Under the pieces are notes generated by a model that saw nothing but the letters and a program-made list of their open reading frames with translations, was not told the DNA's origin and made no database searches. A program made the position numbers and the translations under genes. Below are positions 6,970-20,393 of a DNA stretch of 22,253 bases, piece after piece; the stretch's first letter is position 1, and every line of letters starts with the position of its first letter. This DNA is from a virus. Location: positions 1-22,253 of the IMG/VR virus record IMGVR_UViG_3300046777_002776; one strand, given 5' to 3'.

Positions 6970-6988
6970 CCCTTCGGGGTCTTTTTTT
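6968..6988 (+). terminator. Terminator ending the replication operon
   Basis: GACCC (6968-6972), a TTCG loop and GGGTC (6977-6981) are followed by seven T residues. The TTCG loop is of the exceptionally stable tetraloop class. The stem starts inside the TGA of the 61-aa ORF. Confidence 0.92.
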
Positions 6989-7018: not shown

Positions 7019-7648
7019 ATGGATCCTCAAGAACTGCGATGTTTAATGGAAGCATATACTGAAGTTTATGCCCCACAAGAAGTTGATGAAGCAAAACAGT
7101 CTTTTCCTTTTAAGAAAGTGGAAGGGAAAATGGAAAAGGCAAGAAAGGGTTCTGTCTACGGTAAAGACGGTGGCAGCAATTCCGTTCCTACCGACTCTGA
7201 GAAGAAAGAAACTTCTCGTTTCAGCAAGATGTTCCATGCATCTGAAAAAGCAAAAAGAGAAAAACAAAATGCTGCTAAAGCATCAAGATCTTCAACTTTC
7301 TACAGAGACACTCATCCAGCAAGTCCTGCTAAGATGAAGAAAGCAAATGAAGAATTTGATGTCTTTGATGTAGTTCTGGAGTTTCTCCAAGCAGAAGGAT
7401 TTGCAGAAACTCTGGAAGACGCAGAGTTTATCATGGCAAATGATTTAAATTCTGAGGTTATTGATGCTATTCTTGAGGCGAGAAAATCATATTCAGCAAC
7501 TGCAGCAAGAGAAGGCAAAGATATTGGTAAGCGCGGTAAAGTTTTTGGTAAGATTGCTCGTGATGCTGGTAAGCGTTATGGGTCAGAAGAGCGTGGTAAG
7601 AAAGTTGCAGGGGCAATTCTTGCAAAACTTCGCACTAAGCATGGTTGA
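7019..7648 (+). CDS. Lys-rich tagged mosaic protein, candidate packaged head protein (209 aa)
   Basis: Four parts can be seen. (a) The N-terminal tag MDPQELRCLMEAYTEVY contains L-M-E/A at 9-12, which fits the L/I-x-E cleavage rule of T4 prohead protease. (b) The basic module about 23-105 (EAKQSFPFKKVEGKMEK to RDTHPASPAKM) is shared with the gene at 10414. (c) A helical segment FLQAEGFAETLEDAEFIMAN is shared with the 45-aa ORF at 19474. (d) A strongly basic Gly-rich tail (AREGKDIGKRGKVFGKIARDAGKRYG) could bind nucleic acid. A perfect late promoter lies 18-25 nt upstream; there is no Shine-Dalgarno. I infer a virion-internal or DNA-associated late protein; no enzyme domain is visible. Confidence 0.85.
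   Translation: MDPQELRCLMEAYTEVYAPQEVDEAKQSFPFKKVEGKMEKARKGSVYGKDGGSNSVPTDSEKKETSRFSKMFHASEKAKREKQNAAKASRSSTFYRDTHPASPAKMKKANEEFDVFDVVLEFLQAEGFAETLEDAEFIMANDLNSEVIDAILEARKSYSATAAREGKDIGKRGKVFGKIARDAGKRYGSEERGKKVAGAILAKLRTKHG
7215..7254 (+). repeat. Copy 1 of a 40-nt exact repeat (pair at 10607-10646)
   Basis: The 40 bases encoding most of [13 protein letters not shown] are identical to 10607-10646 in a different gene. Flanking sequence is similar only at the protein level, suggesting gene conversion or recent module exchange. Confidence 0.9.
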
Positions 7649-15417: not shown

Positions 15418-17714
15418 GCAACGGAACCAAAGTTAAAAAGCGTGATGGTCGAATTGAGTCTCTAGACCTAGATAAGATGCATCTTATGGTTGAAGAGGCA
15501 TGTAAGGGTCTTGCAGGCGTCTCTGCAAGTCAAGTTGAAATGACTTCTGGTATTCAATTTTATGATGGAATTACCACCGCAGAAATTCAGGAAATTCTGA
15601 TTCGTTCTGCCTCTGATTTAATTGATTTAGATCATCCTAATTATCAATATGTTGCTGCTCGTCTGCTTCTTTTTGCAGTTCGTAAGCAACTGTATGGAAA
15701 GACGAAGGAACTTCCAACTTTAGAGCAACATATTTATAACTGTGTAAATTCTGATGTATATGATAGTGATATTTTCACTAAGTATTCTAAAGAAGAAATC
15801 GAACGTGCCAACTCATATATTGACCATGATCGTGATTTCTTATTTACTTATGCTGGACTTCGCCAGGTAGTTGATAAGTATTTGGTTCAAGATCGTAGCA
15901 CAAATGGAGTGTATGAAACTCCTCAGTTCATGTATATGATGATTGCTCTGACAATTTTTGCAGAGTATCCAAAAGAAACCCGTATGTCATACGTTAAGAG
16001 GTACTATGATGCAATCTCCAAACACAAAATCAACATTCCCACACCTATCATGGCAGGGGTTAGAACTCCACTTCGACAGTTTGCTAGCTGTGTTCTTGTT
16101 GATGTTGATGACACCCTCGATTCTATCTTTAGCTCTGATATGGCAATTGGCAGGTATGTTGCACAGAGGGCGGGAATCGGCATCAATGCAGGTCGAATCC
16201 GTGGCATCAACAGCAAAATCCGTGGCGGAGAAGTTCAGCACACAGGTGTTGTTCCATTCCTCAAGAAGTTTGAAGCAACTGTCCGATGCTGCACTCAAAA
16301 TGGCATCCGTGGTGGATCAGCAACTGTCCACTTCCCAATCTGGCATCAAGAAATAGAGGATATCTTAGTTCTCAAGAATAATAAAGGAACTGAAGATAAT
16401 CGTGTCCGTAAACTAGATTATTCTATTCAAATCTCTAAACTTTTCTATGAAAGGTTTATTCAAGATGCAAATATTTCACTTTTCTCTCCTCATGATGTTC
16501 CTGGACTTTATGAAGCATTTGGACTTCCTGAGTTCGATGAACTTTATGTTCGTTATGAAAATGATCCATCAATCAAAAAGAAAACAGTTCGTGCTCAAGA
16601 ACTAATTCTTGACCTTCTCAAAGAACGTGCTGAAACTGGTCGTATTTACATTATGAATATTGACCACTGCAATTCACACTCATCATTTAAAGATAAAATT
16701 GAGATGAGTAATCTTTGTCAGGAAATTACTCTACCCACATATCCAATTCAGCATATTGATGATACAAGTGGGGAGATTGCACTTTGCATTCTTTCTGCAA
16801 TCAATGTGGGTAAAGTCAAGTCAGATGAAGAACTTGAAGAACTTTGTGATCTTTCTGTTCGTGGACTTGATGAATTAATTGACTATCAAAAGTATCCTGT
16901 AGCAGCGGCAGAAATCGCCACTAAGGCACGTAGGTCTCTTGGTATTGGTTATATTGGTCTTGCTCATTATCTTGCTAAACTTGGATTTAACTATGATTCT
17001 CAAGAAGCATGGGATGCTGTCCATGGACTTTCTGAATCTTTTCAATATTATCTGCTAAAGGCATCTAATCAACTTGCAAAAGAAAAAGGTCATTGTGAAT
17101 ATTTTGGGCGTACTAAGTATGCTGATGGTATTCTCCCAATTGACACATATAAAAAAGATGTAGACGAAATTACTTCTATTGCACTTGAACATGATTGGGA
17201 ATCTCTCAGAAAGTCTATCCTGGAACACGGTCTCAGGCACTCAACACTGTCCGCACAGATGCCATCGGAGAGCAGTTCCGTTGTGTCAAACGCTACCAAT
17301 GGAATCGAACCTCCTAGGGACTACTTGTCCGTTAAGAAATCAAAGAAAGGACCACTTAAGCAAATCGTTCCTCAATATCAAACACTTAAGAACAATTATA
17401 CGCTTCTTTGGGATATGCCTAGCAATCGTGGTTATATTAATATTGTTGCTGTTATGCAAAAATTCTTCGATCAAGCGATTTCTGGAAACTGGTCATATAA
17501 TCCAGAAAATTATTCCGATAATGAAGTTCCTACTTCAGTAATGGCAAATGATTTCTTAACTACATACAAGTACGGATGGAAAACTTCTTACTATCAAAAC
17601 ACTTATGATATTAAGACTGATGAAGTAGTGGAAGAAAAGAAATCCAAATTAGAAGATTTGATTAGTGAATTAAGTTCAGTAGAGGAGGCAGAGTGTGAAT
17701 CCTGTGCAGTTTAA
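15414..17714 (+). CDS. nrdA: Ribonucleotide reductase class Ia, alpha subunit (NrdA)
   Basis: It reduces ribonucleoside diphosphates to deoxyribonucleotides for phage DNA synthesis. The 766-aa protein starts with an ATP-cone-like segment (VKKRDGRIESLDLDKMHLMVEEA). Redox cysteines correspond to C226 (ASCVLVD) and C458 (IALCILSAIN). The active-site loop is N433-L-C435-Q-E437, and the radical-transfer tyrosines are Y726-Y727 (SYYQNT). The C-terminal swinging-arm cysteines are C761 and C764 in CESCAV, closer together than the C-x4-C of E. coli NrdA. The gene is uninterrupted although nrdA is a frequent intron or homing-endonuclease target. It overlaps primase by 4 nt and nrdB by 20 nt. Confidence 0.98.
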   Translation: MSNGTKVKKRDGRIESLDLDKMHLMVEEACKGLAGVSASQVEMTSGIQFYDGITTAEIQEILIRSASDLIDLDHPNYQYVAARLLLFAVRKQLYGKTKELPTLEQHIYNCVNSDVYDSDIFTKYSKEEIERANSYIDHDRDFLFTYAGLRQVVDKYLVQDRSTNGVYETPQFMYMMIALTIFAEYPKETRMSYVKRYYDAISKHKINIPTPIMAGVRTPLRQFASCVLVDVDDTLDSIFSSDMAIGRYVAQRAGIGINAGRIRGINSKIRGGEVQHTGVVPFLKKFEATVRCCTQNGIRGGSATVHFPIWHQEIEDILVLKNNKGTEDNRVRKLDYSIQISKLFYERFIQDANISLFSPHDVPGLYEAFGLPEFDELYVRYENDPSIKKKTVRAQELILDLLKERAETGRIYIMNIDHCNSHSSFKDKIEMSNLCQEITLPTYPIQHIDDTSGEIALCILSAINVGKVKSDEELEELCDLSVRGLDELIDYQKYPVAAAEIATKARRSLGIGYIGLAHYLAKLGFNYDSQEAWDAVHGLSESFQYYLLKASNQLAKEKGHCEYFGRTKYADGILPIDTYKKDVDEITSIALEHDWESLRKSILEHGLRHSTLSAQMPSESSSVVSNATNGIEPPRDYLSVKKSKKGPLKQIVPQYQTLKNNYTLLWDMPSNRGYINIVAVMQKFFDQAISGNWSYNPENYSDNEVPTSVMANDFLTTYKYGWKTSYYQNTYDIKTDEVVEEKKSKLEDLISELSSVEEAECESCAV

Positions 17715-18882
17715 AATTTCTTCAATAGAAGACCAAACTAGAATTAAAGGAATGACCGTATTCAATACAGAAAAAGTAGATACTAAAAAACAACCAATGT
17801 TTTTTGGAAAACCCTTGGGTATTCAGAGATATGATTCATATAAGTATCCTGTCTTTGATAAACTAACTACTCAACAACTTGGATACTTTTGGAGACCTGA
17901 AGAGGTTTCTCTTCAAAAAGATCGCGGAGACTATCAGACTTTACGTCCTGAACAAAAGCACATCTATACTTCCAATTTGAAGTACCAAATTATGCTTGAC
18001 TCTGTTCAGGGTCGTGGTCCTGGCATGGCATTCATTCCTTATTGCTCTCTTCCTGAACTTGAAGCATGTATGGAAGTATGGGGATTTATGGAGATGATCC
18101 ATAGTCGTTCATATACCTACATTATTAAAAATGTTTATTCTGACCCTTCTGAAGTTTTTGACACTATTATTCAAGATGAACGCATTCTAGAACGTGCTAA
18201 GAGTGTTACTGAGTCATATGATGACTTTATTCAATCTGCACAAAATTATGGTTCATCCAACACCTGGATGCATAATCTTGAAGGTGTTTCATACGCAAAG
18301 GAATCAATCAACGATGTCAAAAGAAAACTGTACAGAGCAGTTGCAAACGTTAATATTCTTGAAGGTATTCGCTTCTACGTTAGTTTTGCTTGTAGTTTCG
18401 CCTTTGGTGAACTTAAGCTTATGGAAGGATCCGCTAAGATTATCTCTCTTATTGCAAGAGACGAAAATCAACACCTAGCAATCACACAAAATATCTTAAA
18501 TAAGTGGCGTGATGGTGATGATCCTGAAATGAAGCAGATTATGAAAGAAGAAGAAGAATGGACTTATAAGATGTTTGACCTTGCAGTAAATGAGGAAAAA
18601 CGTTGGGCAGATTATCTGTTCAAAGATGGTAGTATGATTGGACTTAATGACAAACTTCTTCAACAGTATGTTGAGTGGATTGCAAATCGTCGTCTGAAAG
18701 CAATTGGTCTCAAACCACAATATGACATTTCAGCAAACAACAATCCTCTTCCTTGGACTCAGCATTGGATTTCTTCCAAAGGTCTTCAGGTTGCTCCACA
18801 AGAAACGGAAATCGAAAGTTATGTGATTGGTGGAATCAAACAGGATGTGAAAAAAGATACATTTAGTGGATTTAAACTATAA
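17695..18882 (+). CDS. nrdB: Ribonucleotide reductase class Ia, beta subunit (NrdB)
   Basis: The di-iron tyrosyl-radical subunit (395 aa). Metal ligands are D102, E133, H136, E223, E257 and H260, and the radical tyrosine is Y140 in MIHSRSYTYI. RFYVSFACSFAFGE near 226-239 and ARDENQHL are classic. The C-terminal FSGFKL is the peptide that docks on NrdA. The start is GTG at 17695, chosen because AGGAGG (17683-17688) lies 6 nt before it; the gene overlaps nrdA by 20 nt. A 17-bp inverted repeat starts immediately after its stop. Confidence 0.98.
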   Translation: MNPVQFKISSIEDQTRIKGMTVFNTEKVDTKKQPMFFGKPLGIQRYDSYKYPVFDKLTTQQLGYFWRPEEVSLQKDRGDYQTLRPEQKHIYTSNLKYQIMLDSVQGRGPGMAFIPYCSLPELEACMEVWGFMEMIHSRSYTYIIKNVYSDPSEVFDTIIQDERILERAKSVTESYDDFIQSAQNYGSSNTWMHNLEGVSYAKESINDVKRKLYRAVANVNILEGIRFYVSFACSFAFGELKLMEGSAKIISLIARDENQHLAITQNILNKWRDGDDPEMKQIMKEEEEWTYKMFDLAVNEEKRWADYLFKDGSMIGLNDKLLQQYVEWIANRRLKAIGLKPQYDISANNNPLPWTQHWISSKGLQVAPQETEIESYVIGGIKQDVKKDTFSGFKL

Positions 18883-18940
18883 TTTAAGACTGAAGTTGAA
18901 TGTTGTATAAATAACTATATAACTCAACTTCAGTCTTAAA
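18883..18940 (+). promoter_or_regulatory. 17-bp perfect inverted repeat enclosing a late promoter, directly before a homing endonuclease start
   Basis: The left arm TTTAAGACTGAAGTTGA (18883-18899) is the exact reverse complement of TCAACTTCAGTCTTAAA (18924-18940), with a 24-nt loop. The left arm begins right after the nrdB stop and the right arm ends right before ATG 18941. In read-through nrd mRNA the hairpin would press against the start codon; RNA started at the promoter in the loop lacks the left arm. There is no T-run, so a terminator is unlikely. Confidence 0.9.
18906..18913 (+). promoter_or_regulatory. Perfect late promoter TATAAATA in the hairpin loop
   Basis: Exact late consensus. 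By T4 spacing the start is near 18919, giving a leader of about 22 nt that keeps only the right arm of the inverted repeat. Confidence 0.75.
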
Positions 18941-19459
18941 ATGAATAACTATATTCTTTACTATTACTTAAGGGAGGACTTTAGTTCTCCCTTTTATGTT
19001 GGGTATGGAAAACCAAGAAGAATACACGCAAAACATTTGAGAAGTAATGGAGCAAATCTATTACCACCAAGAGAACGAAGATATATTGTAAAATCTGGTC
19101 TTACCAAAGAAGAAGCAATAGATTTAGAAATAAAGCATATAGCACTTTGGAAAAGAGAGTGTGATGGTGGTATATTATTGAATCAAAATCTTGGTGGAGA
19201 AGGAAAACCAGGGGGACAAAAAACCAGAGGATTTAGTGGGAAAAAACATAGTGAAGAAAGTAAGAAAAAAACTTCATTAAAAGTTGCTGGTAAAAATAAT
19301 CCAAGAGCAAAAAAATATATTTTTATTTCTCCAGATGGAAAAAAATATGTTGTAGAGGGTGGAGTCAAAAAGTTTTGTAAAGAAATAGGAGTAACTTATG
19401 ATGCGGTTTTGGGAAAGAAAAGTAAGAATACAAAAGGTTGGACTATAATAAATAACTAA
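18941..19459 (+). CDS. GIY-YIG homing endonuclease with NUMOD-type DNA-binding motifs
   Basis: A 172-aa free-standing endonuclease. The N-terminal GIY-YIG domain has LYYYLR (6-11) and FYVGYG (18-23), a conserved arginine at R26/R27, a catalytic-type glutamate E63 in DLEIKHI, and N81/N83 in LLNQNLGGEG. GFSGKKHSEESKKK (about 97-110) is a NUMOD3-type minor-groove module. The C-terminal PDGKKYVV...VKKFCKEIGVTYDAVLG...KGWTI resembles a NUMOD/HTH recognition segment. Such enzymes cut DNA lacking their own gene and spread by repair copying; its position beside nrdB suggests a target in or near the nrd genes. The start is TTAAAATG without a Shine-Dalgarno. All expected residues appear intact. Confidence 0.9.
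   Translation: MNNYILYYYLREDFSSPFYVGYGKPRRIHAKHLRSNGANLLPPRERRYIVKSGLTKEEAIDLEIKHIALWKRECDGGILLNQNLGGEGKPGGQKTRGFSGKKHSEESKKKTSLKVAGKNNPRAKKYIFISPDGKKYVVEGGVKKFCKEIGVTYDAVLGKKSKNTKGWTIINN
19447..19454 (+). promoter_or_regulatory. Late-promoter-like AATAAATA for the 45-aa ORF
   Basis: Encoded within the last codons of the endonuclease gene. The expected start near 19460 leaves a 14-nt leader to ATG 19474. Confidence 0.45.
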
Positions 19460-19473
19460 AAAGTAGTTGTAAA

Positions 19474-19611
19474 ATGGACGCACAAGAACTTCGCAATCTA
19501 CAAGAAGCATATTTAGAAGTTTATGATGAAGGATATGCTGAAACACCAGAAGCAGCAGAAGCAATTATGGTGAATATGAGTGAAGAGTGGAGAAACTCTA
19601 TTATCAATTAA
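19474..19611 (+). CDS. 45-aa tagged miniprotein
   Basis: MDAQELRNLQEAYLEVYDEG is nearly the N-terminal tag of the gene at 7019 (MDPQELRCLMEAYTEVY), with a prohead-protease-like L-Q-E/A at 9-12. The remainder, YAETPEAAEAIMVNMSEEWRNSIIN, matches the internal FAETLEDAEFIMAN segment of the same gene. It is therefore a minimal two-module version of the tagged proteins. It may be a functional small virion protein or the remnant of a larger one. No Shine-Dalgarno; A-rich start TGTAAAATG. Confidence 0.72.
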   Translation: MDAQELRNLQEAYLEVYDEGYAETPEAAEAIMVNMSEEWRNSIIN

Positions 19612-19629: not shown

Positions 19630-19791
19630 ATGTTACCAAAAATACTTTCGCAGGATTCCAATTATGATGATTGGTGCGAACAGGAAATCCTGAACGCATA
19701 TAAAGAAGCGGCAGAATATGATGACTTTTTGTTTGGAGATTATGACTATCCTAAAGAATGGTTAGGTAAAAACACAAACGATATTGTATAG
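19630..19791 (+). CDS. Small acidic hypothetical protein (53 aa)
   Basis: MLPKILSQDSNYDDWCEQEI is followed by LNAYKEAAEYDDFLFGDYDY and PKEWLGKNTNDIV. It is rich in Asp, Tyr and Trp. The reading frame is complete, sits 18 nt after the 45-aa ORF and ends just before a terminator, which supports it being real. No ribosome site and no recognised family. Confidence 0.55.
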   Translation: MLPKILSQDSNYDDWCEQEILNAYKEAAEYDDFLFGDYDYPKEWLGKNTNDIV

Positions 19792-19793
19792 AT

Positions 19794-19819: not shown

Positions 19820-19975
19820 ATGGTACATGTTTCAGACATATTAGAACTTAAAGCAAAATTAGATGGGTTAAAGCATCAACTTTATAATGAACAAGCACAC
19901 CCATACGATAAAGAACTTGCAAATAAATACCTTAACAAAGTGATTGACTATGTTAATGAGTTGCAGTTATACTAA
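19820..19975 (+). CDS. Small hypothetical protein (51 aa)
   Basis: MVHVSDILELKAKLDGLKHQ is followed by LYNEQAHPYDKELANKYLNK and VIDYVNELQLY. Predicted as two helices with a central HPYD turn; no cysteines or membrane segment. Function not recognised. Its ATG abuts the T-run of the preceding terminator, so it would be made only from read-through RNA or an unseen promoter. It overlaps the following gene by 32 nt in another frame. Confidence 0.55.
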   Translation: MVHVSDILELKAKLDGLKHQLYNEQAHPYDKELANKYLNKVIDYVNELQLY

Positions 19976-20393
19976 TCCTTGGTTATATGATGGAAAACCT
20001 TTTGATTCGTGCGATATTCAAGATTATTTTGGTTTTGTTTATCTTATACAAAACAATCTTAATGGTAGGAAATATATTGGTAGGAAATATCTGTGGCAGT
20101 TTAGAACACCTAAAGGTAAAAAAAGAAAAGTAAAATCAGAATCAGATTGGAAAAAATACTATGGGTCTTGTCCGGAACTTAAAGAAGACATTGAAAAGTT
20201 TGGTAGAGAAAATTTTAGTAGGATTATCTTATCATTACATAAAACAAAGGGCAAAACAAACTACGAAGAGACACGACAACTCTTCACCAATAACGTACTC
20301 ACAGAGTCCCTTGACAACGGAGAACCAGCATTCTACAATAGCAACATCCTCTCAAGGTACTACCGAAAAGATTATTATGGAAGCAACGACTGA
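19944..20393 (+). CDS. GIY-YIG-like nuclease-family protein (about 149 aa)
   Basis: GFVYLI (30-35) and KYIGRKYLW (43-51) give a clear GIY-YIG core. YYGSCPELKEDIEKFGRENFSRIIL, NYEETRQLFTNNVL and AFYNSNILSRYY then supply the typical conserved E and N positions. Unlike the enzyme at 18941 it has no NUMOD tail. Related single-domain proteins are widespread in T4-like phages and may be domesticated rather than selfish. Three in-frame ATGs (19944, 19950, 19956) leave the exact start uncertain, none with a ribosome site. It overlaps small ORFs at both ends. Confidence 0.8.
   Translation: MTMLMSCSYTNPWLYDGKPFDSCDIQDYFGFVYLIQNNLNGRKYIGRKYLWQFRTPKGKKRKVKSESDWKKYYGSCPELKEDIEKFGRENFSRIILSLHKTKGKTNYEETRQLFTNNVLTESLDNGEPAFYNSNILSRYYRKDYYGSND

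Follow-up and report, generated by a model that had tools for sequence, protein, structure and literature searches.

A promoter-enclosing hairpin ahead of a cyanophage homing endonuclease gene: a probable early-off/late-on translational switch

Described hairpin-controlled genes and the present locus

The principle of a hairpin that keeps a gene switched off in read-through RNA is established for the homing endonuclease gene (HEG) of I-TevI, and similar arrangements are described for I-TevII, I-TevIII and segB (PMC2988022). The same principle applies to the T4 genes e and soc (PMC3014915). For I-TevI, which lies in the td intron, and for its T4 counterparts, RNA from an adjacent middle or late promoter cannot form the start-blocking hairpin of the longer RNA (PMC2988022). 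In e and soc, the late promoter lies within or next to the 5' strand of the hairpin and the late RNA is open (PMC3014915). A similar start-region hairpin is reported for mobE of Aeromonas phage Aeh1, a free-standing HEG tied to ribonucleotide reductase genes (PMC2988022; Gibb and Edgell 2007, 2009). Among cyanomyoviruses, the free-standing HEG F-CphI of S-PM2 has a terminator and TATAAATA just upstream (PMC6083498).

The locus described here comes from IMG/VR record IMGVR_UViG_3300046777_002776, of which positions 1 to 22,253 (22,253 nt, one strand) make up the whole stretch analysed, called the window below. In the T4 intron HEGs, the hidden element is a consensus Shine-Dalgarno sequence about 8 nt before the AUG; the present gene has none, and positions -17 to -1 are taken up by the stem. 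The host gene (the 3' end of nrdB) and the host (a cyanobacterium) also differ. Aeh1 mobE is an HNH gene embedded in an nrd gene, in contrast to the GIY-YIG-like/NUMOD3 gene found here between the nrdB stop codon and the next gene. Genes e and soc serve lysis and the capsid, whereas the gene at this locus encodes a mobile nuclease; F-CphI, which is of the EndoVII type and lies beside psbA, has no promoter-enclosing stem. A literature search that left most subscription journals aside found no description of this switch at cyanophage HEGs. New elements are the use of the switch without a Shine-Dalgarno sequence, its occurrence across HEG families, a sigma-70-like promoter in a sister clade and a conserved terminator-like hairpin inside the reading frame.

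Anatomy of the hairpin

The features at the nrdB–HEG junction are as follows:

17695..18882, + strand: nrdB, ribonucleotide reductase small subunit (Pfam PF00268, E=1.3e-56), stop codon TAA at 18880-18882
18883..18899, + strand: left (5') arm of the stem, in read-through RNA only (sequence, folding, compensatory changes)
18900..18923, + strand: 24-nt spacer, an inner 8-bp helix plus apical loop (folding)
18906..18913, + strand: TATAAATA, T4/cyanophage late-promoter motif, with a predicted RNA start at about 18918-18920
18924..18940, + strand: right (3') arm, -17 to -1 of the HEG start codon (sequence, folding, opening cost)
18941..19459, + strand: 172-aa GIY-YIG-like/NUMOD3 HEG (NUMOD3, PHROG 314, YYY-x9-YVG)

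The first-pass annotation had described an uninterrupted 17-bp inverted repeat filling the space from the nrdB stop to the endonuclease ATG (18941), and this is exact: the arms at 18883-18899 and 18924-18940 are 100% complementary in a direct reading of the sequence, are separated by 24 nt, and leave nothing else in the gap. This is the longest perfect inverted repeat found in the window at a spacing of at most 100 nt, and its arms recur nowhere else in the window. The RNA minimum free energy is -30.8 kcal/mol, against -8.2 +/- 2.2 for shuffled sequences (z -10.4). The annotation had also placed an exact promoter motif in the 24-nt loop; the motif is indeed there, though the inner 8-bp helix continues the stem, so that the loop is itself partly paired. 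That the stem touches the ATG and has no Shine-Dalgarno sequence to hide holds as well: the right arm ends at -1, the stem closing beside the AUG and not over it, and no such sequence can be read in TCAACTTCAGTCTTAAAATG before the HEG start. An Rfam search returned sub-threshold chance miRNA matches only, and a small ORF starting from an AUG in the loop at 18900 was rejected, since it is not conserved (the AUG is missing in locus L012).

TATAAATA agrees with the late-promoter motif of cyanomyoviruses, NATAAATA (PMC2984593). As the motif alone is only mildly over-represented in the window (6 copies versus 2.3 expected), its place in the loop cannot be judged from one sequence; the question is settled by the homologous loci, 83 out of 85 of which keep it there. 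Other copies, at 6988, 10376 and 12398, are followed by ORFs at a similar spacing (about 23-32 nt), as would be expected of late promoters.

Conservation and compensatory change

A scan of IMG/VR for relatives of the HEG found 105, of which 80 were kept: 16 close ones (86-99%) and 64 more distant ones (about 56-64%), the latter mostly having a 200-aa version. Where upstream regions were inspected, nrdB precedes the gene, with the same hairpin ahead of the ATG. The two loci lacking TATAAATA in the loop have TATATGAATA and TATAGATA instead; many of these environmental loci are close relatives, so that sequence counts are not counts of independent events. Over 30 distinct leaders, 89.8% of the cells of the 17-pair stem are paired, and pairing falls to about 50% when the partners are slid by one column. 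Two-sided compensatory change is seen at 9 of the 17 pairs, a level reached by none of 500 shuffles, which ignore relatedness and thus give counts rather than probabilities; this points to a structure maintained by selection. The first-pass annotation had named loss of complementarity in homologous loci that keep the gene as a refutation test; this test was run, and complementarity is kept, with compensatory changes. A chance palindrome is rejected by the conservation and covariation. A mobile palindrome was likewise rejected: the pattern of late motif, right arm and ATG occurs in 64 IMG/VR stretches, mostly known HEG contigs.

These data bear on two other possible roles of the repeat. It could be a DNA operator through which, for example, the endonuclease represses its own late promoter, given that the palindrome surrounds the promoter and that I-TevI binds an operator overlapping its own late promoter (PMC2988022). 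However, G-U intermediates occur in the stem (e.g. U-A, U-G and C-G at one pair), and these wobble states, together with the compensatory changes, speak for RNA pairing and against DNA symmetry; moreover, homologous modules combine unrelated arm sequences with the same geometry. An operator instead of an RNA switch thus appears very improbable, and an operator role could coexist with the switch. The stem could also be an RNase III-type site that splits the nrdB and HEG messages, the 3' product, devoid of the left arm, then being translated. The 17 bp plus the inner 8 bp do make a long double-stranded RNA, but the continuous stem is only about 11 bp long in several relatives, and cleavage leaves the retention of TATAAATA in the loop of nearly all loci unexplained, which makes processing the least probable of the alternatives weighed here.

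Linkage to the endonuclease gene and empty sites

Comparison of nrdB loci reveals presence and absence of the HEG at one site among relatives: it is present in 4 of 79 readable nrdB relatives and absent from the other 75. None of these 75 HEG-less loci has a comparable stem enclosing a late motif (best score 10.5 versus 19.5 here, with nearly identical scoring), though one of them retains an isolated left-arm scar. Many of them either have an ordinary terminator, in some cases with TATAAATA behind it, or overlap directly with the gene that comes next. The final ~30 nt of nrdB also serve as the start of that gene (MLPKILSQDSNYDEW) in many phages without the HEG (e.g. loci L086 and L099). In the window, this gene lies intact some 750 nt further downstream (19631-19792) and both copies of the overlap exist with the insert between them, which implies that inserted DNA has parted two formerly overlapping genes. 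Comparing the occupied locus L080 with the empty locus L157 brackets the insert as hairpin plus HEG. Three loci (L121, L356 and L357) carry after nrdB a decayed left arm alone, with a mutated promoter (CATAAAT for TATAAAT) and no HEG, probably the scar of an HEG loss.

This linkage is relevant to a further reading, according to which the hairpin is a transcription terminator or a stabiliser of the nrdB mRNA 3' end, with the promoter inside by chance. The hairpin does start right after the nrdB stop codon, and in HEG-less relatives terminators often stand after nrdB and ahead of TATAAATA. Nevertheless, the hairpin is not kept in the HEG-less nrdB loci, the position of its right arm is tied to the HEG start codon, and the stem has no U-run: the right arm is followed by ATGAATAAC, and terminator calling does not call the hairpin. 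The nrdB terminator reading was rejected on the missing U-run and the absence from HEG-less loci, and the broader terminator or stabiliser role is judged quite unlikely.

A proposed early-off/late-on switch

The hairpin is best read as an early-off/late-on translational switch that travels with the HEG, a reading to which we attach a probability of roughly 0.85. In read-through RNA coming from nrdB, both arms would be present, and the 17-bp stem covering -17 to -1 would fold up the HEG start region. Having no Shine-Dalgarno sequence and depending on an unstructured start, the HEG would remain untranslated from this RNA. Late RNA from the loop promoter (5' end at about 18919) would lack the left arm, so that a short, open, A/U-rich leader would allow translation. 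The missing Shine-Dalgarno sequence fits this model because translation without one depends on a locally unstructured start (PMC3121790). Read-through ahead of the late phase is plausible, since nrdA and nrdB belong to the middle expression cluster in a Prochlorococcus cyanophage (PMC5082946).

Accessibility was modelled at 37 °C as the cost of forcing positions -18 to +15 open. This cost is 26.9 kcal/mol in read-through RNA versus 4.6 in RNA starting at about 18919, with medians over 36 loci of 15.6 versus 4.3. The corresponding ranges in five further late genes from the window are 6.3-10.0 versus 2.5-7.2. The late motif lies between the arms, and the 3' arm lies over the start region in read-through RNA, as in the T4-type systems. 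On this modelling, the hairpin works like a member of that class by function, the start region being predicted to be closed overall; the literal wording of PMC3014915 places the Shine-Dalgarno sequence and/or the AUG in the stem, so that the hairpin may not belong to the class in the strict sense. When a ribosome terminates on nrdB, about 11 nt of the left arm would lie beneath it, and the stem might be partly opened.

The switch reading draws on the anatomy, conservation, compensatory change, HEG linkage and modelled accessibility, and promoter use, repression and timing are inferred from these. The early-off/late-on interpretation offered by the first-pass annotation appears well supported computationally, through the covariation of the stem, the conservation of TATAAATA, the HEG linkage and the accessibility contrast. 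The annotation had further proposed that the switch may protect nrdB expression and delay cutting.

The same design before other cyanophage endonuclease genes

Distant homologues of the HEG elsewhere in isolated cyanophage genomes show the same plan with unrelated arms. Before the primase gene of MA01 and S-CREM2, the arms are CCGTAGC/GCTACGG and CCGGGTCGC/GCGACCCGG, and the plan is also found at B23 gp45 and in S-B68 between gene 43 and uvsX. No such hairpin was found at the HEG relatives located at other loci of ACG-2014f, RN05-S and S-SRM01 (gp4 side).

Five isolate genomes were then scanned blind to gene identity, the best enclosing stem ending 5' of the ATG being scored for each [A/C]TAAATA followed by an ORF. 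Four of the five were chosen because relatives with such leaders were already known from them; the fifth, S-SRM01, was included on account of its many NUMOD3 hits rather than a hairpin. A score of at least 14 was reached by 14 of 275 genes and by 0 of 1375 shuffles. Eleven of these 14 genes are nuclease-like, of the NUMOD3/GIY-YIG, EndoVII-like or HNH types (Pfam or PHROG), the label of S-SRM01 77631 resting on PHROG 15526 (function unknown, also in the HEG of the window) and that of B23 179724 on resemblance only. With labels taken from genome-wide family searches alone, the P value for nuclease enrichment is 7e-4 with the score threshold at 14 and 1.3e-5 with it at 11.5, several thresholds having been tried. 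In S-SRM01, the six best-scoring genes are all nuclease-like. Most enclosing modules have, in addition, an ordinary terminator downstream of the left arm and ahead of the promoter. The hairpin is not universal: 27 of 35 nuclease-family ORFs have a late motif upstream and only 8 score at least 12.

Free-standing HEGs of unrelated catalytic families seem rather likely to share a general cyanophage cassette: a late promoter, often with a terminator, within a stem closing just before the start codon, the stems being mutually unrelated within one genome and their geometry constant. This indicates that a control known from a few nucleases and late genes of the T4 group appears widespread among the homing nucleases of cyanobacterial viruses, and that the switch can act on messages without a Shine-Dalgarno sequence. 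Cyanophage homing genes can also be sought by the hairpin plan, a signature that is easy to score, and the natural stem variants are a ready set for testing how the expression of a selfish nuclease is timed and how the invaded host gene is spared.

Several HEG-like genes of S-SRM01 (MW015081) share one leader plan with unrelated stems: a CTGA.. or TTGTGTT.. arm, a terminator such as GGTGCTTTCGGGCACC, TATAAATA, the complementary arm, a short A-rich tail and the ATG. A 12-bp hairpin also stands before regA in S-CREM2 (OR473000 20649, L351), with CATAAATA in the loop and arms TAACAGATCCAT/ATGGATTTGTTA.

Sister-clade promoter and hairpin within the reading frame

Of all 37 distinct leaders, 22, belonging to the sister clade, have TTGA(C/T)N-17/18-TATTAT directly before TATAAATA, a near-consensus sigma-70-like promoter. 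Leaders L016-L078 carry it, in the form TTGAC(T/A)-17-TATTAT overlapping TATAAATA, roughly 60 nt ahead of the HEG start (e.g. about 2936-3000 in L016), with its predicted start in the loop. Joint early and late promoters are thought to drive the 'middle' genes of cyanomyoviruses (PMC2984593). The sister clade may therefore not be strictly late; the shared logic would be 'own promoter on, read-through off', strict lateness being best supported in the clade of the window.

A second hairpin lies within the HEG itself:

18970..18993, + strand: terminator-like 10-bp hairpin inside the HEG ORF, codons 11-18 (AAGGGAGGAC TTTA GTTCTCCCTT)

It is kept in nearly all relatives through atypical codons (AGG, GAG, GAC, CCC): AGG in 49/50, in a gene that otherwise mostly uses AGA, and CCC in 46/50, where CCA or CCT is otherwise used. 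In most relatives it is stabler than synonymous shuffles (z about -4), and it may end untranslated read-through RNA.

The endonuclease gene and its neighbours

The gene, called GIY-YIG in the first-pass annotation, has at its N-terminus the YYY-x9-YVG version of that motif, and it matches PHROG 314 'homing endonuclease' (E=7.9e-12). Membership in the GIY-YIG-like catalytic class is nonetheless probable rather than proven, since Pfam GIY-YIG (PF01541) gives no match; fold matches are weak (I-HmuI, E=0.007) and come from a low-confidence AlphaFold model (pLDDT 58.6). A model built from 11 relatives was poor, and a PDB profile search retrieved nothing relevant. A NUMOD-type DNA-binding module is indicated by NUMOD3 PF07460 (20.5 bits, barely over the Pfam cut-off of 20.4) and by a C-terminal match to PHROG 2081 'HNH endonuclease'.

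The 3' end of the gene holds another late motif:

19448..19454, + strand: second ATAAATA, just 5' of the HEG stop, probable late promoter of the gene at 19475 (motif)

It overlaps the last HEG codons, so that the gene following at 19475 apparently keeps its late promoter. The HEG stop codon of L080 overlaps the start codon of the next gene. A second nuclease-like gene, of the SegE GIY-YIG family (PF19835, E=5e-55), lies at 19944-20393, and no late-motif hairpin was found before it. The ORFs at 7019, 10414 and 19475, each preceded by a late motif, have related N-termini, 7019 and 19475 being closest (MD.QELR.L.EAY.EVY); they are possibly virion proteins with a common targeting peptide.
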